Below are positions 15,469 to 39,400 of a stretch of 64,000 bases of DNA, one piece after another; the stretch's first letter is position 1; each line of letters opens with the position of its first letter. The notes beneath the pieces are model-generated. The model made no database searches, was not told the DNA's origin, and saw only the letters and a program-made list of their open reading frames with translations. The position numbers were made by a program, and so were the translations under genes. The stretch lies in contig JASSKH010000023.1 of assembly GCA_031763025.1 (NCBI GenBank), forward strand, positions 2,046,001-2,110,000, read 5' to 3'. The DNA is from Macrocystis pyrifera (lineage: Eukaryota > Sar > Phaeophyceae > Laminariales > Laminariaceae).

Positions 15469-15476
15469 TTTCGGGT
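15469..15476. repeat. 8-bp target site duplication of E1, left copy
   Basis: TTTCGGGT directly before the CAATGGG end of E1; the identical 8 bp lie at 23989-23996. Confidence 0.85.
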
Positions 15477-15539
15477 CAATGGGAATGACTAGGATTGGGG
15501 ACTCACAGGGGACGTTTAAGCCCATCCCCCTGTAGCGAA

Positions 15540-15866
15540 CTACGTGTAAAAATGGCGTTCATTGTGTGTAGGCGTTACTGACCGGGGATAGCATAACTGA
15601 GCACCCAGAGTGCACACTTCGTTCGCCGACTGGAGACGAAGCCGGACAGCTACAGGAGCCAATGGTTGGTTTATGGGTGCTCTGCTGCCTCCTTCTGCTG
15701 TGCCCAGCAAATCAGGCCCTGAAAGGTTTGGACGCGAAAAATCGAGAGCATTTTGCGTAGGATTTTCCGGGGCTAACAATGGTCGATCTATCGGAGTCGT
15801 TGCTGTTACTATCCTATCCACGAGTGCTGTACCCGATCCCGTTCGCCGTTTGCTTCGCGTGCTCAT
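15540..15866 (-). CDS. Conserved ORF at the outer end of E1
   Basis: A 108-codon minus-strand ORF beginning MSTRSKRRTG contains GPDLLGTAEGGSRAPINQPL and ends near the TIR. The E2 counterpart (31226-31588, plus) keeps the same frame over most of its length, supporting real coding. The opposite-strand frame is also open in both copies. Function is unknown. Confidence 0.4.
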   Translation of the reverse strand: MSTRSKRRTGSGTALVDRIVTATTPIDRPLLAPENPTQNALDFSRPNLSGPDLLGTAEGGSRAPINQPLAPVAVRLRLQSANEVCTLGAQLCYPRSVTPTHNERHFYT

Positions 15867-17469
15867 AGCCAGGACGTCTTGTTAATTGGCGCAAGTTTCC
15901 GTTTGAGAAACGATCCTCCACACGATGCAAACTTGATATCTGCTTGAACGTTTTGTTCCAAATTGCGATATCCCGACGAGATGCGGCCCACAACCCACAA
16001 CCCACAACATTCAAAATTCAAAATTCGCATTTCATCACTGATCGACACCTGTGTCTGTTATTGCCACGTATACTGCCTGTATGTCCCCGTACCGTACAGC
16101 AGTACGTATTCGTGTACCAGGTATACTTCATAGATCACAGGGTCTATTGCTATACGTACCAGGGGTATGTAGCAGCAGCTGCTTGACGGCTGAACCGAAT
16201 TCTCGTGGACGACAAGATCGAACCGGTACCTGAAGGCGGCCAGTTTTTGGAGATGTCACAGGACGCCCTGGCCAGGGTTTTTGGGACGACGCTGCAGAGA
16301 CAGAGAGGGGAGCAGCTTCATCAGTGCACGCTTCCGCTCTGAGGGCGACGGCTACGACAGAGGGGCCCGTAGAAGGTGGGTCCCGTTGGAATAGTATTAC
16401 AGCAGCAGTAGTGCTGTTCGACTGGCGTGGACGCCGCAGGTGACAACAACAGCAGCAGTAGTCCGCATATTTTATTTCTGAGGTAGCAAGATGTAGTACG
16501 AGTACGAGAGATAGAGGACTTCGTTTGTCTCTACAGAGTATTGTCCCTGTAAAAGCTGAACCCGCCGCGTTTTTGACGACAGACTTGGAAAAAACACCGG
16601 GCCGGTCATCCGGTCATCGATTTACACACCAAGGATCTACCAGAGGGTAAATCTTTCAGGGCAGATATAAGCCTGATCTGTAGTACCCAGCTCATGTTGG
16701 CGGGTGAGAGCCGTGTAACCTGCCTGCTTGATCTACGAGTACGAAACGTTTCCTGTTTGGGATCTGTACTGTACAGATCTTCCCCAACATATCATAGCGG
16801 TACGACCTAAATCATCTACTACTACAGGAGGTCGTGATCTATCCGACTTATATTTTTTTAAAAGCACATGACGGCCACAAGCAGTAATAAGAAACCAAGC
16901 CGAGATCTATAACGTACTGAATTTATCGTAGGACGCGCCCTCTTTTCCAGGCTGAGCAGATTCCCTGTTTGTTAAAAGGTGGTTATTACCTCACATGGAG
17001 TTACATGATGTGCACACAGATAATTTGCGCGAGTACAGTATGACATGAAAGGGACTTGTGAGGGTAAAGATATCGACAGAAAAAAATCACGATTATATAA
17101 AGTGATACCAGGTATATCGACAACGTCAACCAGCCCGGGTCGCTGGGGTAGGTGTGCGACACTTGTTTAGACTGGTGATGCTGTGAGGATAACAGGGTGG
17201 GAGACAGATTGTATCTTGGCAGGTTTGCAAACTCTAGCTTAGACGCTTGGAAAGGTCTCAATGAAAACTCGTAATTTTGATTTGTACTATTAATACAGCC
17301 GTAGTATACGGCAGTACCGGCCCTCTGATATGAAACGGATAAATTGGTTCAAAGCCATTGATATATTATTCATTTGAGAGAAGCGTGTGCCTTGCACAAA
17401 CAAACTTCGGTATATAGCATACCAGGTATCGAGTTTCTTACTTCTCGCTTTTTTTAGGTCAAGTTTCTT

Positions 17470-17835
17470 GTGGTGCTGTTTGCGAGGGGGGCGGTAGTGT
17501 CGATGCCACGGGGCCCCAAAAGACCAAAGGGTTGTCGAACATCAATTAATTGTGCGCGTCTGACGTATCGCGCATTTTTCAAAGTTGAGTATCAATCACT
17601 ATTTCAGTCGTACTCACAGCTAGCTGACGTATTCGTTTCCCCCCGAGCAAGTCTGAGTAGCCGAATAACCAACGACCACGCTGCGTGTCACAGCTCGTTT
17701 ACGTATTCTCGTTATAGAAGACGGACGACAGCATCTCCAACAGCGAGTACACGAGTACCCCGGGAGGAAAATGAAACGCGCTTCGTGCCAAATGCTACTC
17801 GTATCCGTGAAAATTGTTTGGGAGACGGGTATTAG
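17470..17835 (+). CDS. Conserved ORF fragment in E1
   Basis: A 121-codon plus-strand ORF shares VLFARG, PKRPKG, NCARLTYRAFFKVEYQSL and SQL with the opposite-strand ORF at 29567-29818 in E2. The match is good for about 60 residues and then frames differ. Function unknown; it may be part of a spliced gene. Confidence 0.3.
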   Translation: MVLFARGAVVSMPRGPKRPKGCRTSINCARLTYRAFFKVEYQSLFQSYSQLADVFVSPRASLSSRITNDHAACHSSFTYSRYRRRTTASPTASTRVPREENETRFVPNATRIRENCLGDGY

Positions 17836-18189
17836 TCGCGAGTACCCGGGTAACCGGTCAAAGAGATACACCTCTACTGCATGAAGTTTTTTTTTCATGG
17901 ACCACTACATATTGTATTAATAGTATGCTAGCAACACGGCCGTGGTTTTCTGTAACCCGATATCCCGCATCGGTAAATTGATAAACTATCGCTGCTTTAG
18001 TAGTGCCATCTCAGTCATCCGGGGGGGGAAATAGATACAGTTGACACGCTCCCGTACATGGACCAAACTACCTCTGCGACGGTCCCTGATGCCCACCTAC
18101 CCCACCCCTCCCTCTCCCTTGCCTGCACACCCTTCCCTTCCCCTTTCCCTCCCTCCCCTTTTGGTTTCGTTGTAACGTTTCCAGAGGGT

Positions 18190-18318
18190 CATGGAGGCAC
18201 CCGAGTTCAATGGAACTCTAACGCGCAAGAAGCCCTCTGGCGACGCCGAGAGTGTTTCCAAGTCAAATAGGGACAGCCCATCTACCAAGAAAAGCAAGAC
18301 CTCATGGCTTTTGTTTTG
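18190..18318 (+). CDS. Basic, Ser/Lys-rich C-terminal exon fragment in E1
   Basis: After an acceptor-like GTAACGTTTCCAG, the plus-strand frame reads VMEAPEFNGTLTRKKPSGD, then SVSKSNRDSPSTKKSKTSW and a stop. E2 has the equivalent KKPSGDIESVSKSK...SKTSW with a stop on its minus strand near 28760-28860. Conservation through the stop suggests a genuine protein end. Function unknown. Confidence 0.35.
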
Positions 18319-18485
18319 ACCTTGGCATGATTCATGTGTTTTATTGGCTTGCACGCACGTGGTTTTGCATTGTTTCGATATATGATGCAAGCAAAAACAA
18401 TCTAAGTAAGTATTCAACACGAACTACTTGACTCGGTTGGCGCAATCTCAGCTTCCATTGTGTTTGCTGTTCTGAGGTTTACTAT

Positions 18486-18640
18486 GTGGATGGGGGGGGG
18501 GGGGGGGGGCGACGGAGCACCGTTCCTACTCCTAATAGAGACACCTCCAACAATTGGGCGCTCATTACGTTGTTTCCATATATTACATATAAACTTTTTG
18601 GTAATCTTATCCCCTTCCTGTTTGGCCGCCTGTGGACGGG
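18486..18640 (-). mobile_element. 3' end of a C-tailed LINE inside E1
   Basis: A G run is followed by the reverse complement of about 150 bp of the LINE end at 7990-8130 (GGAGCACCGTTCCTACTCC, CCTTCCTGTTTGGCCGCCTG). At the matching place E2 has only the G/C run and the CAGTACCCC junction. Confidence 0.7.
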
Positions 18641-19437
18641 GGGGGAGGGTTACTGGGTTAGCGTTGGAGGGGGGGGGTTAGGCGTGGCGTACATAAAAGA
18701 ATGACCTCTATGTATTACCCTGAATGCTCGGTTGACGTTGCGTCATTGCTTGCAATGATGAAGGTACACTGCTTGGCTCGGTGGATGTGTATTGGCTTGC
18801 AAGTCTTGTTAGTTTTTGTCCTGAGTGTTCTATCGGTGAGAGGAGGGGTGTAACTGATTTTGTCTTACGCGCACGAGGTTTGCATCAATTTGCGTACGGT
18901 ACAAAACCAATGAAACCAACTATTTTCACATGAAATGGTTGTCTCGGTTGATGCGCTTTCGGCTTCCGATACCTTGTAGTTGTGTTTGTTGGTATGGGAT
19001 TTCATGGCGGGGTCGCGGGTTACTGAGGGGAAGCAGGTGAAATTATACATAATACACGAACAGCAGTGTTGGTTTGTATGCTGGTCTGATGTATCAGCAT
19101 TGTATCAAATTATGCAGTTGAACTGCTTGGATCAGTTGGTGTGTTTTCGTTTTGCAGGGTGGTGTATTTTCGCGGGCTTTTTTTTTTTTTTCATCAGTGA
19201 GGAAGTGGGTGGGGGGGAGAAAAAAAAAAAACTACGAGGGACTATTTGTACGCTTGGCTGAACGCAGCGTCATAGTTTTCCATGCTTCGGTTGTAGTAGA
19301 TACTTAAAGCATCACGGCGAGTCGCAAGGTTTATTAGTTATGAACGCGGTCTCACTATACATGTGTGGGGGTTGCGGTTGTGACCACATTGTTGCACTTG
19401 GCTGGATTGATACACGTAGTTCCTTGGTGGGTTCCTC

Positions 19438-19893
19438 GTGCGATATTTTGTCGCGGAAGTAACAGTCGTTCTGTTTTACATATACATTATCCTGTCATGT
19501 GATGCCGAAAAAACGCAGTGTCTGGCAGTCTCGAGAAAAACACAAGTATTGATGCACGTTCGTTTTTTCCCCCCAACCTTACGTGTGAGAAAAGTAACAT
19601 CAAGAGCGGTACATCAGGTTAATGTGGTGCCGAATCGTTTGTTTCCTGCCTACTACGCTAAACACCGTCCTGACTACGGTCGAAAATACAAATACAGAAT
19701 CAAATTAAGGAGCGCGTACTTTCGTAAATTATTATTTCTGTATTACAATGAGTCCACACAAAGCGTCACAATTTTCGCACGGTACTCTCGGCAATTGTAT
19801 GGAAGCCGAGCCATATCACAGAAAGCCAGATCAGTCATCCCATACAATGTGCTATCGACTCGTGCAGTACACACAAACGGAGCAACAGAGTAA
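19438..19893 (+). CDS. 151-codon ORF in E1, mostly absent from E2
   Basis: The plus strand is open for 151 codons and basic (FPAYYAKHRPDYGRKYKYR, then SAYFRKLLFLYYNEST). The last 60 codons match E2 (minus strand, 28190-28290), while the first part lies in a segment of ~890 bp missing from E2. No family is recognised. Confidence 0.35.
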   Translation: MRYFVAEVTVVLFYIYIILSCDAEKTQCLAVSRKTQVLMHVRFFPPTLRVRKVTSRAVHQVNVVPNRLFPAYYAKHRPDYGRKYKYRIKLRSAYFRKLLFLYYNESTQSVTIFARYSRQLYGSRAISQKARSVIPYNVLSTRAVHTNGATE

Positions 19894-19960
19894 CATATAT
19901 CAATCACTAATATGAATCCACTCTACCTCATGCCCACCAGATGGGCATACAGAAGCTTAC

Positions 19961-19962
<2 letters not shown>

Positions 19963-20018
<56 letters not shown>

Positions 20019-20028
20019 GGGGGGGGGG
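19963..20028. repeat. 55-bp G homopolymer, one T, ten more Gs
   Basis: This is the longest homopolymer in the window. At the equivalent place in E2 (28081-28093) there are 13 Cs. Such a run is often mis-sized in assemblies. Confidence 0.9.
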
Positions 20029-20434
20029 CAGTGGAATTGAAGGAGAGGCCTGTTGAATGTCGTATCTTTGGCACTGCCCCGCCAAATTTCTCCACTCTTT
20101 CCCTCGATCCTCCTCCAGCCAATTGTATTGGCGACCACGGCGTTCGATCTGATTTCGAGGCAAGACCCGCTATCTATTATGCACGACGAAACGAAAATTC
20201 AGCACCACAATATAACCTTCGAATAAACAACACGGTCAAAATTACCCTCAAATAACAAGCGCCACATATTACTGCGAGGGTTCGGGGCAGGGGGAGGGGC
20301 ACCCGAAAATTTACAAGCAAGGCAACAGCGACCAAATCAGGGGGGTTCAAAACACGACTGCACCGACCATCACAAACCACCTCGCCGTTATGAGCGATAG
20401 TGGCGTCAACAAAAATATTCGTGCCCATCACCAC

Positions 20435-20888
20435 CTACTGCTCATCTGTTTTCTCGTCGACAACGACTTCTCCAGTGCCGGCCGCAATTTCCACTGCCGC
20501 GGCATTGGTCGTGCCTTCATCAGCCTCCGAATCGGTAACCCGGCCAATACCCGGTGCCATTTGGCGCAACAACAATTGCAGACCCGACTTCTTAAGAGAG
20601 GGTGGCGGTTTGACGCCACACTTCAAAATGTACTCCCGAATGTGAGCAGCAGTCAAAATTTGACAGGACGAACCTCTGTACCATGGCCAGACCAAGGTTC
20701 GTAGCTACCGGCGCCAGAAAGCTCTTGCGCCCCTGACATTTTGCCTTAACTCCTTCGGTCACTCGTGCAATGACCTGCCTTTCCGCGGGGAGCCTGTCGA
20801 CAATTGCTTCCACCAGTTGGGCATGGCTCTGTATCACAATAGGACAATATATACCTGGTACAAAAAATAGAAAAGACGACATTAACAT
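20435..20888 (-). CDS. Conserved coding region in E1 with SAP-like helix pattern
   Basis: The minus strand holds two overlapping open frames, each conserved in E2 (27162-27630, plus). One contains ERQVIARVTEGVKAKCQGRK and TNLGLAMVQRFV; the other contains HIREYILKCGVKPPPSLKKS, LLRQMAPGIGR and an acidic tail ending VDEKTDEQ. HIREYI-x-KCG-(8)-KKSGLQ-x-LL resembles a SAP-type DNA-binding motif, an inference from spacing only. How the two frames relate is unresolved. Confidence 0.4.
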
Positions 20889-22116
20889 TGCAGTTGAATA
20901 CCCCGACTTTCTGTGAACGAGTTGTCGTGGCTGTAAAAAGCTATGTCAACCGGAGCGCAAAGTGTCAGCAAACAAACATATTTCTGTGCAGTCGTCACAA
21001 GCCGTAGTCTAAGTATTCACTAAAAAGACGTAATCACGTCGTCTACCGTAATAATGATAGTCAACGCCACGCCAGGAGTAAAACAATGGGGCGCCTTTGC
21101 AGCGAAAACCACACTAATATAGAGAAAAACAACGGACTCTTCTTGACGAAAAAAGCCCCGGCGACACAGCAGACGCCCCCTACCCACCCCTTGCCCCTTC
21201 AAATTATTGGGGTAAACGTCACGGGGTCAAGTGGGGATGTCGTAGCAGGAAGGGAAATGGAGCCGTTTCCGATGAAAGAAAAGAGGGGTGATACGCATAG
21301 AAATGTTGACATGCCCTGATACATGTTGATACATGCTTCACGCATCACCAAAACTATGGTAACGGACGAGTTTGAGTGGTCATCACTACTGCTCGGTAGT
21401 AGTAGTAGTAACGTCGTTTCGGATCGTCACAGCTATGCCGGTTTCAGTCTTGAACGCGGGACAACGGCTCTATCGTGCGTCCCCCGGCCGCTCGCGGCAC
21501 CGCGGCCGTTCCACGGTCACTCCATTCGGCAGCCCTCCGTGTCCCCGCCGAAGGAATTGGCGAACGGGGGGCGTAGGAAGGCGCCATCCCGGGGGGCGGG
21601 TCGCTCTCCCCGGCATGGTGGAGTATGGAACAATAAACGGAACTCACAGTACAATACAGGAACAAGCGCGATAAGAACCAGCATGTCTATTGTCGTATGT
21701 ACTGATGTAGTACATGGTGGGTGAGTTGGTGCGTGGGTTGGTTAGTATATGGGCGAGTGGGTTCGTGGCTTTGGGTATTAATAGTTGCCGTATTTTTACT
21801 GTTTCGTTTACTCCACTTGTGCTTCCACCACTGGACCATGGTGCTGCTACGTACGAACTGGGCACTCATCTACTGCTGCACCCACTGCTGTACTGCTGTA
21901 GTACATGGCGGTTGGGTGGATGAGTTGGTGGGCGGATGAGTTGGTGGATGAATGGGTCGATGGGTTAATCGGTGGGTGGGTGGGTGAGTGGATTGGTGAA
22001 GGGGTGAGTGGCTTCGTGAATATGTGTGGCGGCCGTGCTATTTTTTTTGTATTTGTGTTTTGTCCGCTGGATATGCTGCCACTATACCCGACCCGCTGGC
22101 ATACTGCAGCATACCA

Positions 22117-22365
22117 CTACAGTACGCGTAGTGCTTCCAAACTACGCCCCGACCGCATGGTAAATGCCCCGGGCCGCCTTTTCACGCTCGGAATATCACA
22201 AGCTCGAAAGAAAATCACGCCCCCTGAGGCGTCCACTATCGTATTACGATACCTTCGTATGCGCCTTCCCCTCTCGATCATCCGGACCGGCTTCCAACGC
22301 TTTGGTCTCCGTCTCCGGTTCCCAACCATCCGAAGGGGCGCCCTGCAGTTCGGCAAGAGCTGCAC
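22117..22365 (-). CDS. Conserved ORF region in E1
   Basis: More than one minus-strand frame is open and conserved with E2 25717-25995. One contains LQGAP(S/W)DGWEPET and DDREGKAHTK, ending at a donor-like AAGGTA in both copies; another is arginine rich. I cannot pick the coding frame. Function unknown. Confidence 0.3.
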   Translation of the reverse strand: MQLLPNCRAPLRMVGNRRRRPKRWKPVRMIERGRRIRRYRNTIVDASGGVIFFRACDIPSVKRRPGAFTMRSGRSLEALRVL

Positions 22366-22835
22366 GCACTCTTCTCCCTCTCATCCTTACTCATCGTCAT
22401 GGATAATTATAGTATCTGCAAGGAAAAACATCAAGAGTTAGCGAAGGGGTTGCTTCTCCGCTGATGAGAATATAGAGGCATTTCGACGTACGTTAGCCAA
22501 TCGTAGAGGTTGCGGTTGGCATGCCCCCCGTAAGGATAAGACTTTGTAACCTACGACGTCGCGCGCAGTCCTTCGATGGTCAAACGAGTACCGGATCACA
22601 GACTGCGTATCACGACTAACCTCTGACCCCGTCGTCCTCGCTGACCCCGTCGTCCCCGCCGTCCTGTTGAACCATGCACTTCGCTTCGTCGGTTTCTGCA
22701 GCGTCCTGTGATCACAGTGGGAACGACATTCAAGGAGTTTATCTTAATTTGACAAAACGGCTTGCAACGTTATCTGCAGGCGCGGATCAATGGGTCTTGA
22801 CTCCACCATAAACCAACCTTGCGCACTCTGGACAG

Positions 22836-23075
22836 ACCATCCATTCCCAGTTCATGATCTACTGTAGTTCTTTCAAGGCAGCTCTATTCCCAATCTTGTA
22901 ATATCTACCTCATATAGCTGGGCCCGTGCTATAACATCTGTACGAGGGGAGTAGCACATGTTTCCTGGGTTGGATCTGTGCAATGCGGATCCTGCTAAAC
23001 CTATCACGACGGCAGATGAGGAACTAGATGAACTACTGCTGTAGATAGATCATGATCAGTCCGAGGTGTGAAAAG
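22836..23075. mobile_element. MITE family A copy in E1
   Basis: Ends near CTCTGGACAGACC and AGTCCGAGGTGTGAAAA with GATC-rich subterminal sequence. The corresponding copy in E2 is at 24982-25243, so this insertion predates the split of E1 and E2. Confidence 0.6.
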
Positions 23076-23988
23076 TTGCACTCGACCTATCGATGCACGA
23101 CACTCACCGTCTCCAAAGGCACGTCACTAGAACGATGAGCCGACCTCCTTTTTTTGCCTTCCCCCCGTGTGGACTCATTCCATCCGCACACAGTCATTGG
23201 TCACTCCGTCGTCTCGCGCCCAAGGTTATCTCCAGCCCGGTATGTAGGATATCTGTGATATCCACGTACAATTAGTCGGTCGAGTCGTGGTTCCACATAC
23301 GGTTAACGACACGCAGTTGCGACATCGCGCGAAAAAAAGTATGTACATTAACGCGCCACCACAACCTCGAAGTGCCCTTCAGCTGCTGCTGTGGTTTGAT
23401 TTGTTCCGCAGAGACAGAAGGATGACATCTCATCAGTACGTACATATCTGGTACTCGTCCGAACTCGCACGAGTTTTGCTCGGTGCTGGTGAGTTTGTAC
23501 TGCTGTTGTAGTTGAACATGCGGTAAGTTACGATTTTGAACATCATGCCTAATTTTGAGGACAACGTCTACGTCTTGGTTACAGTCGTTTGCCGAAAAAA
23601 TGGCTGGAGAACATCCAGCAATAGGCTAGCTGTCATAACCAAGAAGAAACGGCGAACGGGAACGTCAATTGGCGAAGTGCGGTGGCCTGGCGTCCAAACG
23701 AAGTTGCTTCATGGCCTTGCGGCCGACGTAGCATTTTTCGATTTTCTTCGCTCACCTTGAACGATATCCACGAATTCTTCGTGGATGACGTCGCCGACGT
23801 GGTGCTGGATGGTTCCTGACTCTTTGTGGGCGCTGCGGTGGCCTGCTTCGCTGTCGCCGGTGCGATATGTGTGCAGCCCTAAGGGATTTCATAAAATCCC
23901 AGAGGCGTGTTTTTTTTACACGAGGTTGGCTGAAAGCATTCCTTACCAAAAATCTTGAGTGAGTCCCCAATCCTAGTCATTCCCATTG

Positions 23989-24002
23989 TTTCGGGTCTTC
24001 CC
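23989..24002. repeat. Overlapping target duplications between E1 and E2
   Basis: TTTCGGGT (23989-23996, right copy for E1) overlaps GTCTTCCC (23995-24002, left copy for E2) by GT. The 14 bp are all that separate the two elements. Confidence 0.85.
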
Positions 24003-24004
24003 CA

Positions 24005-24262
24005 ATGGGAATGACTATCATTGGGGACTCACTCAAGATTTTTGGTAAGGAATGCTTGACCCCACGTACGTGTAAAAAAATTGTAGAAATTACCGCCTCT
24101 GGTATTTTACGAAACCCCAGATTCCGGCTCACAGATGATGCCGGACACAGCGCAGCAGGACACCGCAGAGCCCACAAAGGGTCAGGAACTATCCAGCATC
24201 ACGGAGGCGACGTCGTGCACGAAGATTTTTTGGAAATCGTTCAAGGTGAGCGGAGAAAATAG
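24005..24262 (+). CDS. ORF starting in the TIR of E2
   Basis: An 85-codon ORF begins with ATG inside the TIR (MGMTIIGDSLKIFGKECL) and runs to a donor-like CAAG then GTGAGC shared with E1 (around 23745). A second open frame conserved with E1 reads TKGQELSSITEATSCTKIFW. It is unclear which frame is used. If coding starts here, the TIR itself encodes the N-terminus. Confidence 0.3.
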   Translation: MGMTIIGDSLKIFGKECLTPRTCKKIVEITASGILRNPRFRLTDDAGHSAAGHRRAHKGSGTIQHHGGDVVHEDFLEIVQGERRK

Positions 24263-24981
24263 AAAAAAACTACGTCGGCCTCGAAAGCGGTGATGCAGCA
24301 TGGCTTGGACGTCAGGCCACCGCCCTCGTCCCTTTGAGGTTCCCGTTCGCCGTTTCTTCTTGGGTGTGACAGCCAGCTTACTGCTGAATGTGCTTCAACC
24401 ATTTTTTCGGCGAATGACTGCAACCAAGACGTGGACGTTGTCCGAGATGTAGCAAGATTGTTCAAAATCGTAACTTTCCGCATGTTCAACTACAACAGCA
24501 GTACAATCTCAGCATCGAGTACTCGTAACTCGTGCGAGTTCAGTGTGGACGACTGCTGTAGTACCAGGTACATGTATGTATACTGATGAGATGTAGGCCG
24601 TCATCCTCATGTCTCTACGGAAGAAATCCAACCGCAGCAGCAGCTGAAGGGCACTTCGAGGTTGTGGTTGGCGTGTTAATGTACATCGCGACGTTGCAGC
24701 AGTGTCAGTGTTAACCGTCAGTGTGTCGAACCACGACTCGACCGGCAAATTGCACGTGATTATCACATCTCAGATATCCTACATACCGGGCTGGAGATAA
24801 CTTGGGCGCGAGACGATGGAGTGACCATCGAAGGTTGGGATGGGATGAGACGAACCATGGAGAGACCTGAGCTCGGTTCGGCCACACGGGGGGAAGGCAA
24901 AGAAGGGGGGTCGGCACTCCGTTCTGGTGACGTGCGTTTAGAGACAGTGAGTGTCGTGTGTATCGATAGGTCGACTGCAAC

Positions 24982-25243
24982 TTTTCACACCTCGGACAGA
25001 TCGTGATCTATGTACAGCAGTAGATCATCTATCTACCGTTAGTAGTTCCTCATCTTCCGTCGTGATAGGTTTTGCAGGATCTGTATTGCACAGACCCAAC
25101 CCAGGAAACATGTGCTACTTCGTTCATATGTTATGGTTCGGGCCCAGCTACATGAGGTAGATATTACAAGATCGGTAATAGATCTGCCTTGAAAGAACTA
25201 GAGTATATCATCAACTGGGAATCGATGATCTGTCCGAGGTGCG
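24982..25243. mobile_element. MITE family A copy in E2
   Basis: Starts TTTTCACACCTCGGACAGATC and ends GATCTGTCCGAGGTGCGCAA with GATC-rich interior; orthologous to the copy in E1 at 22836-23075. Confidence 0.65.
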
Positions 25244-25716
25244 CAAGGTTTGGTTTATGGTGGAGTCAAGACCCACTGATCCGCGCCTGCACATAACGTT
25301 GCAAGACGTTTTGTCAAATTAAGATAAACTCCTTCAATATCGCTCACGCTATGATCACAGTACGCTGCAGAAACCGACGAAGCGAAGTGCATGGTTCAAC
25401 AGGACGGCGGGGACGACGGGGTCAGCGAGGACGACGGGGTCAGCGAGGACAGCGGGGTCAGAGGTTAGTCGTGATACACAATCTGTGATCCGGGAAGAGA
25501 TTTGACCATCGAAGGATTGCGCGCAACGTCGTAGGTTGCAAAGTCTTAATCTCACGGGGGCATGCCAACCGTAACCTCTACGATTGACAAACGTACGTCG
25601 AAATGCCTCTATATTCTCATTGGCGGAGATGCAACCCCTTCGTTACTTCTTGATGTTTTTCCATGCAGATACTTACTATCGACGACGATGAATAAATATA
25701 AGAGGGAGAAGAGTAC

Positions 25717-25995
25717 GTGCAGCCCCTGCCGAACTGCAGGGCGCCCCTTGGGATGGTTGGGAACCGGAGACGGGGACGGAAGCGTCGGAAGGCAGTCCGG
25801 ATGATCGAGAGGGGAAGGCGCACACGAAGGTACCGTAGTACGCTAGTGGACGCCTCAGGGGGCGTGATTTTCTTTCGAGCTTGTGATATTCCGAGCCTGA
25901 AAAGGCGACCCGGGGCGTTTACCATGCGGTCGGGGCGTAGTTTGGAAGCAATACGCGTAGTGGTATGCTGCATTATGCCAGCGGGTGCGGTATAG
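25717..25995 (+). CDS. Conserved ORF region in E2
   Basis: Counterpart of E1 22117-22365. Two or three frames are open; the acidic one (WEPETGTEASEG, then DDREGKAHTK before GTACCG) and the arginine-rich one (PGRRTRRYRSTLVDASGG-like) are both conserved. Function unknown. Confidence 0.3.
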   Translation: MQPLPNCRAPLGMVGNRRRGRKRRKAVRMIERGRRTRRYRSTLVDASGGVIFFRACDIPSLKRRPGAFTMRSGRSLEAIRVVVCCIMPAGAV

Positions 25996-27161
25996 TGGCA
26001 GCACATCCAGCGGACGAAACACAGCTACAAAAAGAAAATAAGGCCGCCACCCATATCCCCGAAGCCACTCACCCCTCGACGAACCCAGTCACCCAGTCAC
26101 CCACCCACCAACTCAGCGACCCATCCACCCATCAACTTATCAACCCACCCGCCATGTCCTACAGCAGTACAGCAGTAGGTGCAGCAGTAGATGAGTGCCC
26201 AGTTCGTACGTAGCAGCACCATGGTCCAGTGGTGGAAGCACAAGCGGAGTAAACAAAACAGTAAAAACACGGCAACTACCCACAACCACGAATCCACTCG
26301 CCCACATACTTACCTACCCACACACCCACGCACGCACCAACTCACCCACCATGTACTACATCATTAGGTACAGCGTTAGACATGTTGGTTCATATCGCGC
26401 TTGTTCCTGTATTGTCCTGTGAGTTCCGTTTATTTTTCCATACTCCGCCATGCTGGGGAGAGCGGCCCGCCCCCGGGAGGGTGCCTTTTCACGCACCCCG
26501 TTCGCCAACTCCTTCAGCGGGGACTGCCAAGTGGAGTGGACGCAGCACGGTCGCGGTGCCGCGAGCGGCCAGGAGACGCACGATAGAGCCGCTGCACCGC
26601 GTTCAAGACTGAAGCCGGCGTAGCTGTGACGATCGGAAACGATGTCACTACTACTACTACAACTACTACCGAGCAGTAGTGATGACCACTCAAACTCATA
26701 TGTTGCCATTATTTTGGTGATGCGTGAAACACATATAGACATTGACATGTATCAGGACACGTCAACATTTGTATGCATCCCACCTTGTTTGCATCGGAAA
26801 CAGCTCCATTCTCCTTCCTGCCACGACATCCCAACCTGACCCCGGGGCGTTTACCCCAATAATTTGAAAGGGCGAGGGGGGGGTGGGAGGCGTCTGCTGT
26901 GTCACCGGGGCTTTTTCAAGAAGAGTAAGTTTTTTTTTCTCTATATTGGTGTCGTTTTCCCTGAAAAGGCGCCCCATTGGTTTGCTCCTGGCGTGGCGTT
27001 TACTATCATTATTACGGTAGACGACGTGATTACGTCTTTTTAGTGAATGCTTGGACTATGGCTTGTGACGGCTGCACAGAAATATGCTTGCTTACTGACG
27101 CTTTGCGCTCCGGTTAACATAGCTTTGCACAGCCACGACAACTTATTCACAGAAAGTCGGC

Positions 27162-27630
27162 GTGATCAACTGTGTTGTTGCTGTCGTCTTTTTTTTTCTG
27201 TGCCAGGTATATATATATATGTATATATCCCATTGTGAGACAGAGCCATGCCCAAATGGAGGAAGGAATATCGACAGGCTCCCTACGGAAAGGGAGGTCA
27301 TTACACGAGTGATTGAAGGAGTTAAGGCAAACTGTCAAGGGCGCAAGAGATTTCTGGTGCCCTTAGCTACGAACCTCGGCCTGGCCATGGTACAGAGGTT
27401 CGTCATTTCAAAGTTTGACTGTTGCTCACATTCGGGAGTATATTTGGAAGTGTGGCGTCAAACCGCCACCCTCTATTAAGAAGTCTGGTCTGCAATCGCT
27501 GTTGCGCCAGATGGCACCGGGTATTGGCCGGGATACCGATTCGGAGGCTGAGGAAGGCACAACCAATGCCGCGGGGGTGGAAATTACGGCGGGCACTATC
27601 GAAGCCGATGTCGACGAGAAAACGGACTAG
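27162..27630 (+). CDS. Conserved coding region in E2 with SAP-like helix pattern
   Basis: Counterpart of E1 20435-20888. Frames contain EREVITRVIEGVKANCQGRK, ATNLGLAMVQRF, HIREYIWKCGVKPPPSIKKS and an acidic tail ending VDEKTD. The stop position differs slightly between copies. Role unknown; a DNA-binding part of the element's own protein is a reasonable guess. Confidence 0.4.
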
Positions 27631-30600
27631 CTGTCTTCGATCTGGTTAATATTTGTCGTCGTGTACAGCAGTAGGTGGTGATGGGCACGAATATTTTTTG
27701 TCGACAACCAAAACTATCGCATAACGCAGAGGTAGTTGTGATGGTCGTTGCAGTCGTGTTTCAACCCCCCTCATTATGTTGCTGTTGCCTTGCTTGGTAA
27801 GTTTTCGGCTGCCCCTCCCCCTGCGCGAACCCTCGCAGTAATATGTGACGCTTGTTATTTGAGGGGCATTCTTACTGTTTTTTTTTATTCCAAGGCTAAA
27901 TTGTGGTGCAGAAATTTCATTTCGTCGTGCATAATAGATAGCGGGCCTTGCCTCGAAATCGGATCGAACGCCGTGGTCGCCAATACATTAGCCGGAGGAG
28001 GATCAAGGGCAGAGTGTGGAGATTTGGCGGGGCACTGATAAAGATACGACATTCAACTGGCCTCTCCTTCAATTCCACTGCCCCCCCCCCCCCTCACCCC
28101 CTCGTAAGCTTCTGTATGTCCATCTGGTACGCACGAGGTAGAGTGGATTGATGTTATTATGTAGTGATTGATATATGTTATTTTGTTGCTCCGTTCGTTT
28201 CCGTTTGTATTTACTGTACGGGTCGATATCACATTGTGTGAGATGACCGACCTGGCATTCTGTGGCATGGCTCGACTTCGGTACAATTGCCGAGAGACTG
28301 CCGTGCGAAAATTGTTGCGCTTAGTGAGGACTCATTGTGGTGCAGAAATAGTAATTTACGAAAGTACGTGCTCCTTAATTTGATACTATTAATACAAGAC
28401 TTGCAAGCCAGAACACATCGACCGAGCCAAGCAGTGTACCTGTATCATTGCAAGCAATGACGCAACATCAACCGAGCATTCATGATAATACGTAGTGATC
28501 ATTCTTTTATGTAAGCCACTCCCTACCCCCCCCCCCCCCCCCCCCTCCCCTCCAACGCCAACCCAGTACCCCCCCCCCCCCCCCACACACACAGTAAATC
28601 TCAACACAACTACAAGACATTGAAAGCCGAGATTGCGTCAACCGAGTCAATCAGTCCATGTTGAACACTTGCTGAAATTGTTTTCGCTTGCATCATATTC
28701 GAAACTATGCAAAACCGCGTGCGTGCAAGCTAATAAAATAGATGAATCATGCCAAGGTCAAAACATAAGCCATGAGGTCTTGCTCGTCTTGGTAGACGGA
28801 TTGTCCGTCTTTGACTTAGAAACACTCTCGATGTCGCCAGAGGGCTTCTTGCGCGGCAGGGTCCGTTGACCCACAGCGCCTCCATGACCGTCTGGAAAAG
28901 TTACAGCGAAACCAAAAGGAGAGGCAAGGAAAGGGGAAGGGAAGGGCATGCAAACAAGGGGGAGGGAGGGGTGGGGTAGGTGGGCATCAGGGACTGTCGC
29001 GGAGGTAGTTTGGTCCCAGTACGGGAGCGTGTTAACTGTATCTATTTCCCCCCCGGATGACTGAGATGGCAATACTAATGCAGCGATACTACAGTAGTTT
29101 ACCAAATTTACTGGACGCGGGACATCGGGCTACAGTAAACCACGGCCGTGTTGCTAGCATAATAATACGTGGTGCATTTAAGGAAAATAATACATTACGC
29201 ATTGGTCCATAAAAAATACTTCATCCAGTGAGGTGTATCCCTTTGACCGATTGCCCGGGTACTCGCGAGTAATACCCGTCTCCCAAATAATTTTCACGGA
29301 TAAAAGTATTAATAGCACTTGGCACTTTTTTTTTTTTTTTTAATCCTCTGGCGGATTGGTAAACATAAGCTCAAGCTCACCATAATTTCACGTTCAAATC
29401 GTGTCTTGTCAATTTAACCCATAGCTCCCGTTGCGAAGCGCGTTTCATTTGCCCCCCCGGGTACTCGTTCGTGCACTCGCTGTTGGAGATGCTGTCGTCC
29501 GTCTTTTATGACGAGAAGACGTAAACGAGCTGTGACACGCAGCGTGGTCGTTGATTGTTGGGCTACTCAGACTTGCTCGGGGGGAAACAAATACGTCAGC
29601 TGCGAATTCGACTGAAGTAGTGATTGATATTCAACTTTGAAAAGTGCGCGACACGTCAGACGCGCACAATTGACGTTCGATAACCCTTTCGGCTTTTGGG
29701 GCCCCATGGTATCGACACCTCCTCCCCTCGCAAAGAGCACCACAAGAAATTTAGCCGTAAAAAAAACGAGAAGTAAGAAACTCGATACCGACGTTTGTAT
29801 AGGGAACACGCTTCTCAAACGAATAATCTATCAATAACTTTGAACCAATTGATCTGCTTCTGATCAGAGGGCCGGTACCGTATGCTACTGTAGTCAGAAC
29901 CAAAATAACGACTTTTTATTGAAACCTTACCAAGCATCCAAGCAAGTGTGCAAACCTGGCAAGATACAATCTGTGTCCCACCCTGTTATCCTCGCAGTAT
30001 CACGAGTCCGAACAGGTGTCGCGCACCTACCCCAGCGACCCGGGCTGGTTGACGTTATTGATATACCTGGTATCACTTTATACAATAGTCATTTTTTTGT
30101 CGACATGTTGACCCTCTCACTCACGTCCTTTTTCATGCCATACTGCTGTAGTACTCGCGCAAATTATTTGTGCGCACATCATGTAACTCCAAGTAAGGGA
30201 ATGCTCAGGCTGGAAAAAGGGGTGCGTTCTACTCGTATAAAGGCTCCCGATTCACTTGTTTTTCTTTAAATCTCGGACTGGTTTCTTTTTACTGCTTGTG
30301 GCAAGTCCTATTATAAATCGGACAGATCACGACCTCCAGTAGTAATAGATTATCTACAATAGGTCCGCTACGGTATGTTTGGGAAGATCTGTACAGTATA
30401 GATCCCAAACAGGAAAAAAATCGTACTCGTAGAGATCAAGCAGGTTACACGGCTCCCACCCGCCAATATGAGCTGGCTACACTACAGATCAGGCTTTTGG
30501 CTGCTCTCTGAAAAATCTACCCTCGGGTTGATCATTCGTGTGGAAATCGATGACCGGTCCGATATGCTTGTTCCAAGTCTGTCCCCCAAAACGCGGCGGG

Positions 30601-31225
30601 TTCAGTTTTTACGGGGATAATAATAGAAACAAGACGAAGTCCTCGTATCTCTCGTGCTCGTAAATCTTGCTACCTCGTACCTCTGGACAAAAATATGTGG
30701 ACTATTGTTGTTGTTGTCACCTGCGGCGTCCATGCCTGCTGTAGTACTGGTCCAAGAGGACCCGCCCTCTACCGGCCACTCTGTCACAGCCGTCGCTCTC
30801 TGAGCGGAAGCTTTCACTGAATCAATGATGATGCTGCTCTCCAGCGCCGTCCCCAAAAACACTGGCCAAGGCGTCAGGTGACATCTCCAACTGGCCGCCT
30901 TCAGGTATCGGTTCGATCTTGTCGCTCACGAGAATTCGGTCCAGCCGCTGCTGTTGTATATGGATCCTGTAGGAAGTATTCCTGGTATACGAACACGTAC
31001 TGCTGTACCGTATGTACAGGCAGTATACGTGCAATAACAGACACGGGCGTCAATCAGTGATGAAATACGAATTTTGAATTTTGAATATTATGTATGGGTT
31101 GTGGGCCGCACTTCGTAGGGATATCGTAATTTGGAACAAAACGTTCAAGCAGATATCAAGTTTACATCGTGTGGAGTATCGTTTCTCAAACGGAAACTTG
31201 CGCCAATTAACAAGCCGTCCTGACT

Positions 31226-31588
31226 ATGAGCACGCGAAGCAAGCGGCGAACGGGATGGGATGCAGCACTCGCGGTTAGGACAGCAGCAGCGACGACTCCG
31301 AAAGATCGGCCATTCTTATCCCCGGAAAATGGTATGCAAAAGGCTCTCGATATTTCGCGGACAAACCTTGCAGGGCCTGATTTGCTGGGCACAGCAGAAG
31401 GAGGCAGCAGAGCACCCATAAACCAACCATTGGCGCCTGTAGCTATAAGGCTTCGTCTCCAGTCCCCAAGTGAAGTGCACACCCTGGGTGCTCAATTCTG
31501 GTCTCCCCGGTCAGTAACGCCTACACACAATGAACGCCATTTTTACACGTACGTGGGGACAGGGGATGGGCTTAAACGTCCCCTGTGA
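31226..31588 (+). CDS. Conserved ORF at the outer end of E2
   Basis: A 120-codon plus-strand ORF beginning MSTRSKRRTG shares most residues with E1 15540-15866 and runs into the terminal inverted repeat (RHFYTYVGTGDGLKRP). Function unknown. Confidence 0.4.
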   Translation: MSTRSKRRTGWDAALAVRTAAATTPKDRPFLSPENGMQKALDISRTNLAGPDLLGTAEGGSRAPINQPLAPVAIRLRLQSPSEVHTLGAQFWSPRSVTPTHNERHFYTYVGTGDGLKRPL

Positions 31589-31614
31589 GTCCCCAATGAT
31601 AGTCATTCTCATTG

Positions 31615-31622
31615 GTCTTCCC
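31615..31622. repeat. 8-bp target site duplication of E2, right copy
   Basis: GTCTTCCC directly after the CATTG end of E2, identical to 23995-24002. Confidence 0.85.
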
Positions 31623-34909: not shown

Positions 34910-36265
34910 CTGTAAGTTTTTTGGCCCATGGTCTCTCGACAGAGTGTATGCATTCGCGTGTTTTTTCTGGCACGTCCTCTCCGACCTTCGACCCATGGGG
35001 AGGGTCAACTACCCGGCCGGCGTCGCCATTATGGGGGCCTGCGCGGGTGGCTGTATGTGGCACATCGATTGAACGCCCCGATAGCACATGTCACCCAGGC
35101 TTAGTTGAGAACTGCCATCCATAAAAAAATATGCCGTGGATATATGAGAGATATCGCATGTCACCTACAGCCAGCAGCACTTATGACGGCCAGCAGCACT
35201 TATGGTGTGTATGCTATCGTACACCGGCAGCTGCAGTGGAGCTGTACTACGTGACTGCAGAGATGTACAGCTGCAGCAGTACTGCTACAGCAGCTGTTGT
35301 GACGGCACCTTTCTACGGCGCTGCGCTGTCAGTCATCGCGTACTCCCTGAATTAGAAGTCAGTTACACCGCCTTCTAGGATTCCGCCGCTTTTCGGTTAA
35401 CCGGCAAGTAATCGCCGGTATTCTGCCGCCTTTTCATTTCTCAATTATCTGTTATCATGAATAACTCAATATCTTCATTTCACACTTCTCAGAGTGGAGT
35501 GCGGGGCACACGCTCTCAATCTCCTGACATCGAGTCTTGGCCTCCTCCTCCTACCCCTCTACTTTATACTCTCTTCACGCGAGTCTGCGGCCGTCCAGGC
35601 CGCCGGCATAGCCTCTTGTATATAGTTATAGCTATAGAACAGAGTAATACCAGGTAGGATTTACGGGGAAAATCCCCGCTACTACTATTGTAGTGGCAAA
35701 CTGTATGCGACCTTGGGAATTTTATTTTTTAAATTTAGATACACACACTCCTTGAATTTGGCAGTTTCAGATTTTGTCTTCCTCATAGATGTACTTACTT
35801 AGATCTCGATCTCTGAGCGTGCTCGGTTGGTACATCCCTGGCCTCTCAGAGCTCCCACTTGGGAATCGCCTCCGTCTATTAATTGCCGGACCGTTCCACC
35901 GAGTCTTTGTTTTCTCCATTTCTCGTCGTACTTTCAGTCCTTCTTCCCTTTTTCTTCTTTCGTTTCGTGTGCGTGCGTGTACTCCGAGCACGGTTGCGCG
36001 GGCGAACCCGGCACCGTCGCGGGTGTCAGCGGATGCTGGCGAGTAGAGGGGGAGTTGCAAGGAGCGCGGTCGCTGCTTTCGTGCCTAGGCGTCGCGTGTG
36101 CCTCGAGAGACGAGGGATGCATCAATAGGCTCTGTCTGGCCTCCATTTGTGATTTTGAATAGAGTACGTACGAGTATTTAAGGGTCGTTCGGGATTGTAA
36201 GATAATATTCAAGCGGTGCTTATTTTTGCGACCGGGCTGGGAGTCACAAGAGGGAGGTACCCCGA
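34910..36265. other. Probable promoter and 5' UTR region of the large plus-strand gene
   Basis: No certain exon. 35130-35340 is rich in CAGCAGCAC/CTGCAG repeats. 35700-35800 is a dispersed repeat also found at 38280-38375. 35830-36200 is GC-rich and pyrimidine-rich, consistent with a 5' UTR for the gene starting at 36266. A 97-codon minus-strand ORF (35767-36060) might be the end of a divergent gene. Confidence 0.4.
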
Positions 36266-36444
36266 ATGACCACCAACATTGTCGAGCTTGCGTCGAGGTC
36301 CACGGTGAGGACCGGGCTTCACGCGAGGCGGGCGACGGGGCTCACTGTGGAAGAGAGGGAGGGAAGCTTTACCCGGACTGAATCGGTGGCGAGATGGTCG
36401 CGAGAGGGGCGGGCGGCGTACGAGGCTGAGAGAGAAGCTCTGCT
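36266..36444 (+). CDS. Giant gene, first coding exon
   Basis: ATG in context CCCCGAATGACC. Reads MTTNIVELASRSTVRTGLHA, later EREGSFTRTESVARW and AAYEAEREAL, and ends in phase 2 at donor GTAAGA. Basic and Ser/Arg-rich, no signal peptide. A start here is chosen because the upstream sequence is UTR-like; an upstream exon cannot be excluded. Confidence 0.55.
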
Positions 36445-39400
36445 GTAAGATTTTTTCTTTTTTTTCATTTTTTTTCTTTTTTTTTGACTGGTGTAAAGTG
36501 TTTCACTCAGGTAGTAAATTATTACACGAAAGGGGACGGGGATTTTATTTCTTTTAGAATTTTTCGGTTTCATTTTCATTGTTTTTGCTGTGTTGCTGTG
36601 CCGTTCTGTGCTTAACTTTCGTACATACGACGAGTACACAGACACAGAGCATATCGAAAGAATAAAATAAGTACCCTACCTGGGGTATGTACGTATGTAC
36701 GACGTGTGAGCGAGCGTAGCGGAAAACCGCCCGCGACGCAAAGCATATGTGGCGTCCGAGCTGTGTTTTCTCCTGAAGCATGGCGGCCGGACTCTTGGCA
36801 TGATCAAGTCGCCAGTTTGCAGCTAACTACAGGGGCCATAAAAAAAACAATATTCAATCATGGACCTCTGTCCGCTTCGCAAAATTTGATGTTTCCTTCC
36901 TGAGCGAGCGTAGCGGGCGGCGTAGGCCGCCCGCCGAGCGAAGCGCCTTGTATAATCATACCAGGTACCAGGTATACGGGATGCATATCCTGCGAGGCCA
37001 TATACAAACCCGTAGTACGCGCTCGGTAGTAGTGATAATAATGGTGTCTGAACAATTCTGAATGCCACTCTGTCCCGAGATATGAGTACCGTTTCCTTAT
37101 ACTCTTGCTGTAATACACAAACGATTCTTATATTTGGGAACAGAATGCTAGCATGTGCATATTTATAAATACCTATGAGCAACAACAAACACCCCTCAAA
37201 ATCTTGTCCTGACACCTGTCATCCCGTGAGATGAATGTACTGGTTTATTTGTACGCAAACTACTGATACGACCACGCAGTGATAATCAACAAAGCACCAC
37301 GAGCAACAAGATATATGACATAAGAAATGTCTATACCCCATACGTGTGTCCTATGACCACGATGCAGCAGTGCTGCTGTACCACTACGTACATTTTCACG
37401 ATGACCTGACATCATACAGAACCCTTTTGCATATCTATCACGGCATACCAGGTACCTCGTAAACAACAATAATAATACGACCCTTCCTTGCCTCAATAAT
37501 AGCACGAGAATTCAATATGAACATCCTTGTACGACCTCATTTCGCTCGGGTGCCGAAAGCAAAATAGATACACACATATGTCAAAATAATTTCTTGCTGA
37601 CAAATGTATATATAAAAAAGCAGATAAGCCTCTGAACTATTTGTAACTTCTCGCTAAAAATTCTTCAAATAAGATGCCACCAGTATGACCTGACATAGGT
37701 GTTCGACATATCTTGACACATACATACCTCGTATACACTACTTTCGAATCTACACAAAAAGCCATATAAAATAAAATCTAGACATTAAAACAACGGCAGC
37801 AGCAAAAACAGCAGCAGCAAGAACAGCAGCAGCAGCTCATCCCCGGAAGAATTATTCACATTTAGAACCATACCATACTAAAAATTCAATAACACTCAAT
37901 CAATCTATAAATATTTGTGAAATGAAAAGGTTTCAACATGTTGCAACATCATATCATCCCTTGTTCGGGTTATATAGTATCAGTGAATGATTATTTTAAA
38001 TTGTCCTGTTGACCCGGGCAGCATCCAGGGGAGCCACTGGCCTATATCTTTGACAAGGAATTACTTATAGAATACGCGCGTTCGGTTTATCACAATACTT
38101 GTAAAATTCGGTCAAAATGGAATATAGACGAGACGTATTACGCAGCTTGCAAAGTTGAGTATCAACTATTTAATCAGTCGAACTCACAGCTGACATACAT
38201 CAAAATTTATAAAAACAGTAAGATCAGGTATGAAATACACACCGGAAGAATTCCCCACTCGTGGAGGGGAAGCTCGGTGCATAACCTTGGAAATTTATCC
38301 AAACATAGACGTGCACACTCCTTGAATTATGCAGCCTCTTGTGTAGCAGATTTGTCTTCCTCGTTTACGGATGTATTTCCTGCATGAGGCCATATAAAAC
38401 CCGTAGTACGCGATATCGAAGTATCACTAGTATCACTAGTATCACTAGTATGACACACACAGGTTGCAAAGATGATGAGTTTCGACGAAATCCTCAATCT
38501 CACAGCAGCTGCTGTTTTATAATTTTATAAATATACTTTGAAGGATAACACTATCGGCCACTTTGCATCTTCGCATGCACCGGGCTGTTGGCTTCCTTTG
38601 ACCCCACTCCCGCGGTGTACTTCCACGCCAATGGCTGATGGCTGCTCTTCGGTGTGGCACGCGGACTTTTCGCGACGCCGATTCGAAGAGGAACAAATCG
38701 CGGTGGTTGTCCGCTCGAGGAATGTCCGGATGGGTTGCGCATAGCAGAAACAAACCTGGGGCATATGTCGCATTTACGATCTTTTCGGTGGGTAGCTCGC
38801 CTAGCGGAACTGCCCGTGCTCTTCATGATAGCGTCAAATCGAGTTTTGTTTTTTGTTGAACCATAGTATCTGTCACAGGCATGCTTGTAGTGAGTCCGCT
38901 GCCAATACTTCGTATAGTGCTAGTACTGCTGTGCAATACCCCTGTGTTGTCGTTTGAGGCATCGTCGCAAAGAGCTAATGAGTTCACGCGTAAAATCCCG
39001 CTCCTCGTCATGACCAGGTGAAAGGGTCGATGGTGTTCAACGACGATTTCATGGAAGAGGAATACGCCAACCTTCCAGCCTATCAAGGCACGGAGGTACT
39101 TGAGGTGAGACTCGTCTAAATATTGGAGAACCAGCCGTGTACGAGAACATCAGGCGAGCTGTATATTACGATATGATGTGCGCGAGACTGTACCACATTT
39201 TGTTGCACCGAACAAATGCAAAGGTGCCGCAACTCATGTTTTTGCCACTGCACACCCCCGTTTGGCGGACAAAAATACTTGAAATTAAAGTAGGAGTCAG
39301 TTTTACAGATTTGGAAAAGGGCTAAGAACACGCGCACTCCCCATAATCTTCCACGGAGGAACCGCGAGAAAAAAAAAATAGCTGGCAACTTGCCTATAGA

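Follow-up and report, generated by a model that had tools for sequence, protein, structure and literature searches.

The window considered here is a stretch of 64,000 nucleotides from the brown alga Macrocystis pyrifera (GenBank assembly GCA_031763025.1, contig JASSKH010000023.1, positions 2,046,001 to 2,110,000 of the forward strand), and its subject is a pair of large related elements, E1 and E2, that lie in inverted orientation with a gap of 14 bp. E1 (8512 bp) occupies 15477-23988 on the plus strand, and E2 (7612 bp), its inverted relative, occupies 24003-31614 on the minus strand. Both are bounded by 30-bp terminal inverted repeats (TIRs) of the general form CAATGRGAATGACTANNATTGGGGACTCAC. 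The two TIRs of E1 are identical (CAATGGGAATGACTAGGATTGGGGACTCAC at 15477-15506 on the plus strand and the same sequence at 23959-23988 on the minus strand), while those of E2 (CAATGGGAATGACTATCATTGGGGACTCAC at 24003-24032, plus strand, adjoining E1, and CAATGAGAATGACTATCATTGGGGACTCAC at the outer end, 31585-31614, minus strand) differ by one mismatch (CAATGGG.../CAATGAG...). The elements meet at their right ends, which are the "TCAAG" ends. Each is also flanked by its own perfect 8-bp target duplication, read directly in the sequence: TTTCGGGT for E1 (15469-15476 and 23989-23996) and GTCTTCCC for E2 (23995-24002 and 31615-31622), with the dinucleotide GT at 23995-23996 common to both.

Inside the TIRs lies a subterminal inverted repeat about 62-76 bp from the ends. 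In E1 its left copy is AACTACGTGTAAAAA (15538-15552, plus strand; positions 62-76 from the end), and its right copy, AACCTCGTGTAAAAA (23913-23927, minus strand), carries two differences. A second subterminal repeat of E1, TCCCGTTCGCCGTTT, lies at 361 and 328 counted from the two ends (15837-15851, plus strand; 23647-23661, minus strand). The subterminal repeat of E2, CCCCACGTACGTGTAAAAA, comprises the same 19 bases at both ends (24060-24078, plus strand; 31540-31558, minus strand). Across E1 positions 31-150 the longest exact word shared between the ends is 10 nucleotides, a length reached by 14 of 2000 shuffles. Coding capacity was found in neither element, the longest stop-to-stop frame being 179 amino acids in E1 and 138 in E2.

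A global alignment of E1 with reverse-complemented E2 leaves 6255 of 7224 aligned columns identical (86.6%), with identities of 79-93% per 250-column block and 73% in one block, three blocks with 0-10 shared columns being set aside. Gaps account for 1676 columns, 880 of them in a single stretch that only E1 has. The initial annotation had described two related TIR elements of long-separated lineages that inserted separately and now form a 16-kb imperfect palindrome. This description is supported, including the separate insertions with different perfect 8-bp duplications and the divergence of the subfamilies. The best explanation is that E1 and E2 arrived by independent insertions and represent two diverged subfamilies within a single family of large, non-autonomous cut-and-paste DNA transposons.

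That the two arms are an assembly fold-back is extremely improbable. Fold-backs would be expected to yield near-identical arms, whereas 13% of the aligned bases differ between E1 and E2 and each element has a duplication of its own; a perfect fold-back, which may itself be an artefact, does occur on another contig (C203, locus L030), where it involves the left part of E1 without its ends. At that locus (C203:8159150-8160049) two E1-type left parts are joined head to head, each matching E1 at 100% and each without terminal repeats (E1 positions 524-42, then 99-515); the structure may have arisen in assembly or through breakage.

The overlap between the duplications had been read to mean that E2 inserted into the edge of E1's duplication. 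Neither this order nor its reverse is supported, because an ancestral site ...TTTCGGGTCTTCCCCTCGC yields an identical final sequence whichever element arrives first. The order is therefore not recorded in the junction, and reading it from the overlapping duplications was rejected on this ground.

Copies of the family and their target sites

The genome searched is an assembly of 537,376,219 bases in 223 contigs, in which the left end of E1 has at least 42 matches when E1 is counted (40 of 121 candidates were scored). All frequencies given below rest on copies listed by this left-end search. The 41 further matches lie in 20 stretches of 10 kb, nearly all of which are best-ranked, and in 20 short stretches around left ends; 19 stretches at expected right ends, five longer ones, and five chosen by hAT matches were read in addition.

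Both sides could be read for 22 insertions, none of which counts a shared-flank repeat twice (L012 is counted once). The 8-bp duplication is perfect in 19, including L032 after a one-base shift of its end, matches at 7 of 8 positions in L019, and is missing from L001 and L016. TIRs together with a duplication of fixed length place the family among the class II cut-and-paste TIR elements, and the ends and duplication length proposed initially from the window recur in other copies among those listed. An empty site is available for one copy only, L019, whose left and right flanks resemble positions 35972-36468 (96.4%) and 36462-36952 (93.6%) of a repeat in the window (35972-36952) that lacks the insertion. 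The approximate empty site is at 36461-36468, with the junction in a T-rich run.

The duplicated sites are weakly palindromic. Over 33 sites, L001 and L016 among them, 57 of 132 letters agree with GT....AC where 33.0 would be expected at random, and none of 20,000 draws reaches 57. The same 33 sites favor the hAT pattern nTnnnnAn, with T at position 2 in 14 and A at position 7 in 16. For a motif derived from Galileo, AANGTNNNNACNTT, 53 of the 112 letters examined at 14 sites match, with 27.9 expected (0 of 20,000 draws); the motif was chosen after the base counts of 16 sites had been seen, one of the 14 sites (L032) is one base out of register, and the background is this window only. The published Galileo target motif is palindromic (PMC4168063); it was adapted from a 7- to an 8-bp duplication, and the window pair and the relic-abutting sites were left out. 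Of 22 right flanks, 9 contain a further motif, GGG(A)GTTCC/GGGTTTCGA, which lies on one and the same side relative to the element and starts 14-25 bp outside the duplication; the background rates are 0.04 and 0.02 per 60 bp. No claim is attached to it because the pattern was built from those same flanks.

Terminal sequences vary by type, and the two ends of an element agree. Bases 16-17 of the TIR are GG in E1 types and TC in E2 types, and the bases just outside ACGTGTAAAAA are AACT in E1 types, CACGT in E2, and AGGT in L019, the right copy of E1 having changed. At the right subterminal site, where E1 has AACCTCGTGTAAAAA, the copies L007, L014, L016, and L017 carry AACTACGTGTAAAAA. Such matched ends suggest either co-evolution with an enzyme or conversion of one end by the other.

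Identity among copies, taken as the mean identity of BLAST matches over 18 complete copies, bears on age. The 14 other E1-type copies are 98.7-99.6% identical to E1, except L019 (96.4%), while E2 has one close relative, L008 (97.8%). These complete copies are nearly all best-ranked left-end matches; copies ranked lower have left ends that agree with E1 at 88-95%. The best-matching E1-type copies have thus spread recently. Both insertions in the window had initially been called recent on the strength of their intact duplications and nearly identical TIR pairs. For E1 recency stands because it is about 99% identical to 13 of 15 other complete copies (E1 itself and the E2 type excluded; L016 at 98.7% and L014 at 98.8% are among the 13); it is not supported for E2, whose one near relative is 97.8% identical, and identity of the TIRs does not by itself imply it. 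There is a hint, and no more, that E2 may be the older of the two, since E1 sits in a near-identical group and the E2 type is rarer among the fetched copies.

Several loci are not independent. One left flank is common to the C189 copies L020, L021, L025, and L028, and another to L035 and L039. L041, L045, and L048, also of the C189 cluster, have one left flank in common and lie about 36-63 kb apart, and their right terminal repeat appears to be interrupted by a short insert containing a poly-A tract. The cluster probably consists of duplicated segments carrying an old insertion. The left flank of L012 and the right flank of L013, on different contigs, share about 497 bp at 99.8%, and the shared sequence ends within a few bases of both insertion points. 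Nested within L010, at element position ~1890, is a further insertion of about 4.36 kb. A long poly-G tract in E1 (window positions 19961-20028) lies at the same place in other copies, with alignment gaps of variable length.

The longest stop-to-stop frame in the 18 complete copies is 225 amino acids (L019), and the other 17 have none above 179. Ten translated fragments (nine from E1, one from E2) gave two Pfam matches only, with E values of 0.12 and 0.15 that fall below the cut-off for acceptance, and substitutions between E1 and E2 lack codon-like periodicity (best chi-square 8.7 in 113 windows). No transposase was recognized in ten window frames outside E1 and E2 or in ten frames of the unusual copies L062-L064; a glutamine-rich frame among the latter has four matches, all with E above 0.009 and likewise below the cut-off. 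No autonomous partner was found among the copies and stretches read. Because no coding capacity was found, the family is most likely moved in trans. The older copies L060 and L061 carry a nested copia-type polyprotein and a DIRS-type element, as judged by eye from their frames. The retrotransposon protein of L060 has 41 listed matches, nine of which bear an organism name (eight Ectocarpus/Sphacelaria and one butterfly), pointing to a brown alga as the most likely host.

End relics beside insertions and the superfamily question

Other copies of the family are inserted exactly at an 8-mer that adjoins a relic of the family's own ends. A perfect 11-of-11 end relic lies directly beyond the 8-mer in 3 of 51 flanks (L004, L012, and L017), the next best flank having five mismatches, and none of 95,378 background positions matches with one mismatch or fewer. 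The 51 flanks are 31 left and 20 right ones; E1 and E2 were left out, and L008 and L016 are not among the three. At L012 the order is GAACGACC-[element]-GAACGACC-CAATGGGAATG-T-CCTAGTCATTCCCATTG-GAACGACC, that is, 8-mer, element, 8-mer, two-ended relic, and 8-mer. L004 shows this arrangement on its left, where two copies of TCATGAAC enclose a two-ended relic of 42 bp. At L017 an 11-base relic of one end lies directly past the duplication. L008 adjoins a degraded 21-bp two-ended relic followed by a third 8-mer with one base changed.

A site of the L008 type without an element is found in a repeat beside L018, reading ACTGGAGC-AATG-TATAGTCATTCCCATTG-ACTAGAGC, where the first C of the relic also belongs to the 8-mer. 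In a further copy of this repeat, L016 (E1 type) starts at the same ACTGGAGC. The repeat has a period of 965 bp (L018 8891-10000; also at L008 and L016) and is apparently unrelated to the family; because it carries a two-ended relic, it multiplies one landing site.

Three two-ended relics, those of L004, L012, and L018, could be read completely; the longest end residues in them are 15-18 nucleotides. We infer that the relics are excision scars. They might instead be the remains of a second full copy, in which tandem elements shared one 8-mer and one of them was later lost by excision or internal deletion. This sequence of events predicts three 8-mers, exactly as in L012 and L004, and E1/E2 illustrates that adjacent full copies occur. 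It is nevertheless somewhat unlikely: it still requires insertion into an 8-mer beside an existing end, so that the targeting is only shifted to an earlier event, and a two-ended relic with no element at it is present in the repeat beside L018.

The family stands about an even chance of belonging to the hAT superfamily. In hAT elements the 8-bp duplication tends to have T as its second and A as its seventh base, GT....AC is likewise preferred, and the ends take the form CA(A/G)NG; the family shares these traits with non-autonomous hAT members. The hAT dimerization domain PF05699 has at least 150 scored matches in this genome (317 candidates). The family departs from hAT in being about 8 kb long with no coding capacity found, in its TIRs, since 30 bp is long for hAT, and in relics that keep 15-18 nucleotides of the ends, which hAT scars usually do not. 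No hAT gene with the family's ends was found, five 1-kb stretches downstream of five hAT domain matches containing no matching end.

The relic length fits another source. Transposases of the P superfamily (P element, Galileo, and zebrafish Pdre2) cut 17 nucleotides inside the ends, and their scars would accordingly keep up to 17 nucleotides of each end, close to the longest residues in L004, L012, and L018 if these did arise by excision. The 30-bp TIRs, subterminal repeats, 8-bp duplications, and Galileo-like palindromic motif are further likenesses, although GT....AC is equally a preference of hAT elements. The singed-weak double P insertion is reportedly a parallel for adjacent inverted copies. 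Published descriptions cover the 17-nt staggered cut (PMC7776569) as well as the 8-bp duplications of P and Pdre2, the ~30-bp TIRs of P, and subterminal inverted repeats (PMC7776569, PMC1562414, PMC4168063, PMC10983969). Membership in the P superfamily is nonetheless unlikely. The RNase-H domain PF21787 gave zero candidates and zero matches in this genome, a silence to be read with the fact that no control genome matched either, while hAT domains gave their 150 or more scored matches by the same method. P is also absent from Table 1 of a survey of Ectocarpus transposons (PMC12477816).

Mobilization by a Kyakuja-Dileera-Zisupton (KDZ) transposase is less probable still. It would account for the giant size and the 8-bp duplications, and there is precedent in the published accounts of giant KDZ elements in Ectocarpus and of fungal elements with mostly 8-bp duplications (PMC12477816, PMC12730594, PMC12810828); giant families without transposase genes are reported from Ectocarpus as well (PMC12477816). 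PF18758 gave one unconfirmed candidate and no match in this genome, and here too no control genome matched. The TIRs of KDZ elements differ from the present ones, being 139-241 bp in Cryptococcus (PMC12810828) and lacking in fungal Kyakuja, which has 7-bp duplications (PMC12730594). No superfamily is assigned because, by the rules given above, the sequence of the ends and the letters of the target suit hAT, and they suit P as well, while residues of 15-18 nucleotides fit the P stagger.

Clustering of copies and the choice of landing site

E1 and E2 are not the only close pair. On contig C196, L008 (E2 type) and L007 (E1 type) lie inverted 87 bp apart with different duplications, meeting at their left ends where E1 and E2 meet at their right ends. 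These are the two close pairs among the copies seen, and each joins one E1 type to one E2 type. By chance, two elements within 14 bp of each other in 537 Mb are expected 7e-5 times with 50 copies and 0.03 times with 1000, and pairs at 87 bp or less 0.0016 times with 100 copies and 0.16 times with 1000; the closeness of E1 and E2 is accordingly not put down to chance.

The account we favor, and consider probable though far from assured, has the family moved by a transposase acting in trans, whose insertion complex is attracted to positions next to the family's own ends or scars. This enzyme, most likely a hAT and next a P-like one, would recognize the 30-bp TIRs, possibly together with the subterminal repeats that begin some 62-76 bp from the ends, cut the element out, and insert it with an 8-bp duplication at weakly palindromic GT....AC sites. 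Attraction of the insertion complex to sites beside existing ends or scars may then explain why only 14 bp separate E1 from E2 and only 87 bp separate L007 from L008. A stricter form, in which the enzyme recognizes an existing end or two-ended scar and homes to it, inserting the next copy into the duplicated 8-mer of an earlier one, is entertained only tentatively, and E1/E2 would be its near-miss form.

The clustering could also reflect two ordinary, independent insertions brought close by a shared preference for open or repeat-rich DNA or for a target motif, with ends and relics irrelevant. The family does have a target motif, and some repeats do hold more than one copy (one has L010, L027, and the C189 cluster, another has L007 and L024). 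Such a regional preference is an unlikely explanation of the whole, as it does not account for insertion at exactly the 8-mer that adjoins a relic, seen in 3 of 51 flanks and in one degraded case.

Several observations weigh against attraction to the family's own ends and against the family account as a whole. The numbers of pairs and lone relics come from the listed copies only. The 8-mers of E1 and E2 are not one and the same, being offset by 6 bp, and the pair is therefore an event of a different kind from those at L012 and L004. The relic at L017 is one-ended and has no third 8-mer, and the other flank of L016 is different, with neither duplication nor relic. Three junctions (L041, L027, and L010) fall within 7 bp of one repeat sequence, both sides being read and matching only for L027, so that a preference for certain repeats could account for some of the clustering with no need for the family's ends to be recognized. 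Of the 19 stretches at expected right ends, five have a clean end and three a split end (C189 copies), and 11 have no right end at the expected distance. Outside the 22 insertions read on both sides, the C189 copies have unlike flanks, GTCAGAAC on the left and GTGTACTC or GTGTATGG on the right, and the right ends of L003 and L018 are lost. L012 and L057 (contig C117) have their right flank in common, relic included, so that allelic copies may be present among the loci. As for the transposase being supplied in trans, the domain search covered ten fragments, and a gene of many small exons may yet lie within the elements.

The initial annotation had raised end-targeted transposition as a reason for insertion beside a relative. 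As first put it was a guess; the relics exactly 8 bp away at L004, L012, and L017, the degraded relic at L008, and the second inverted pair now speak for it. Scar-targeted insertion was not found among the titles and abstract openings of a mostly open-access literature, which is no claim of its absence in print.

If copies do return to scars of their own family with single-base precision, scars would be lasting landing pads, including those spread by an unrelated repeat that happens to carry one, and excision would mark a site instead of freeing it. Clusters of giant elements would then grow from landing pads and not only by chance or local hopping. The 16-kb imperfect palindrome formed by inverted giants 14 bp apart is itself a likely source of rearrangement.

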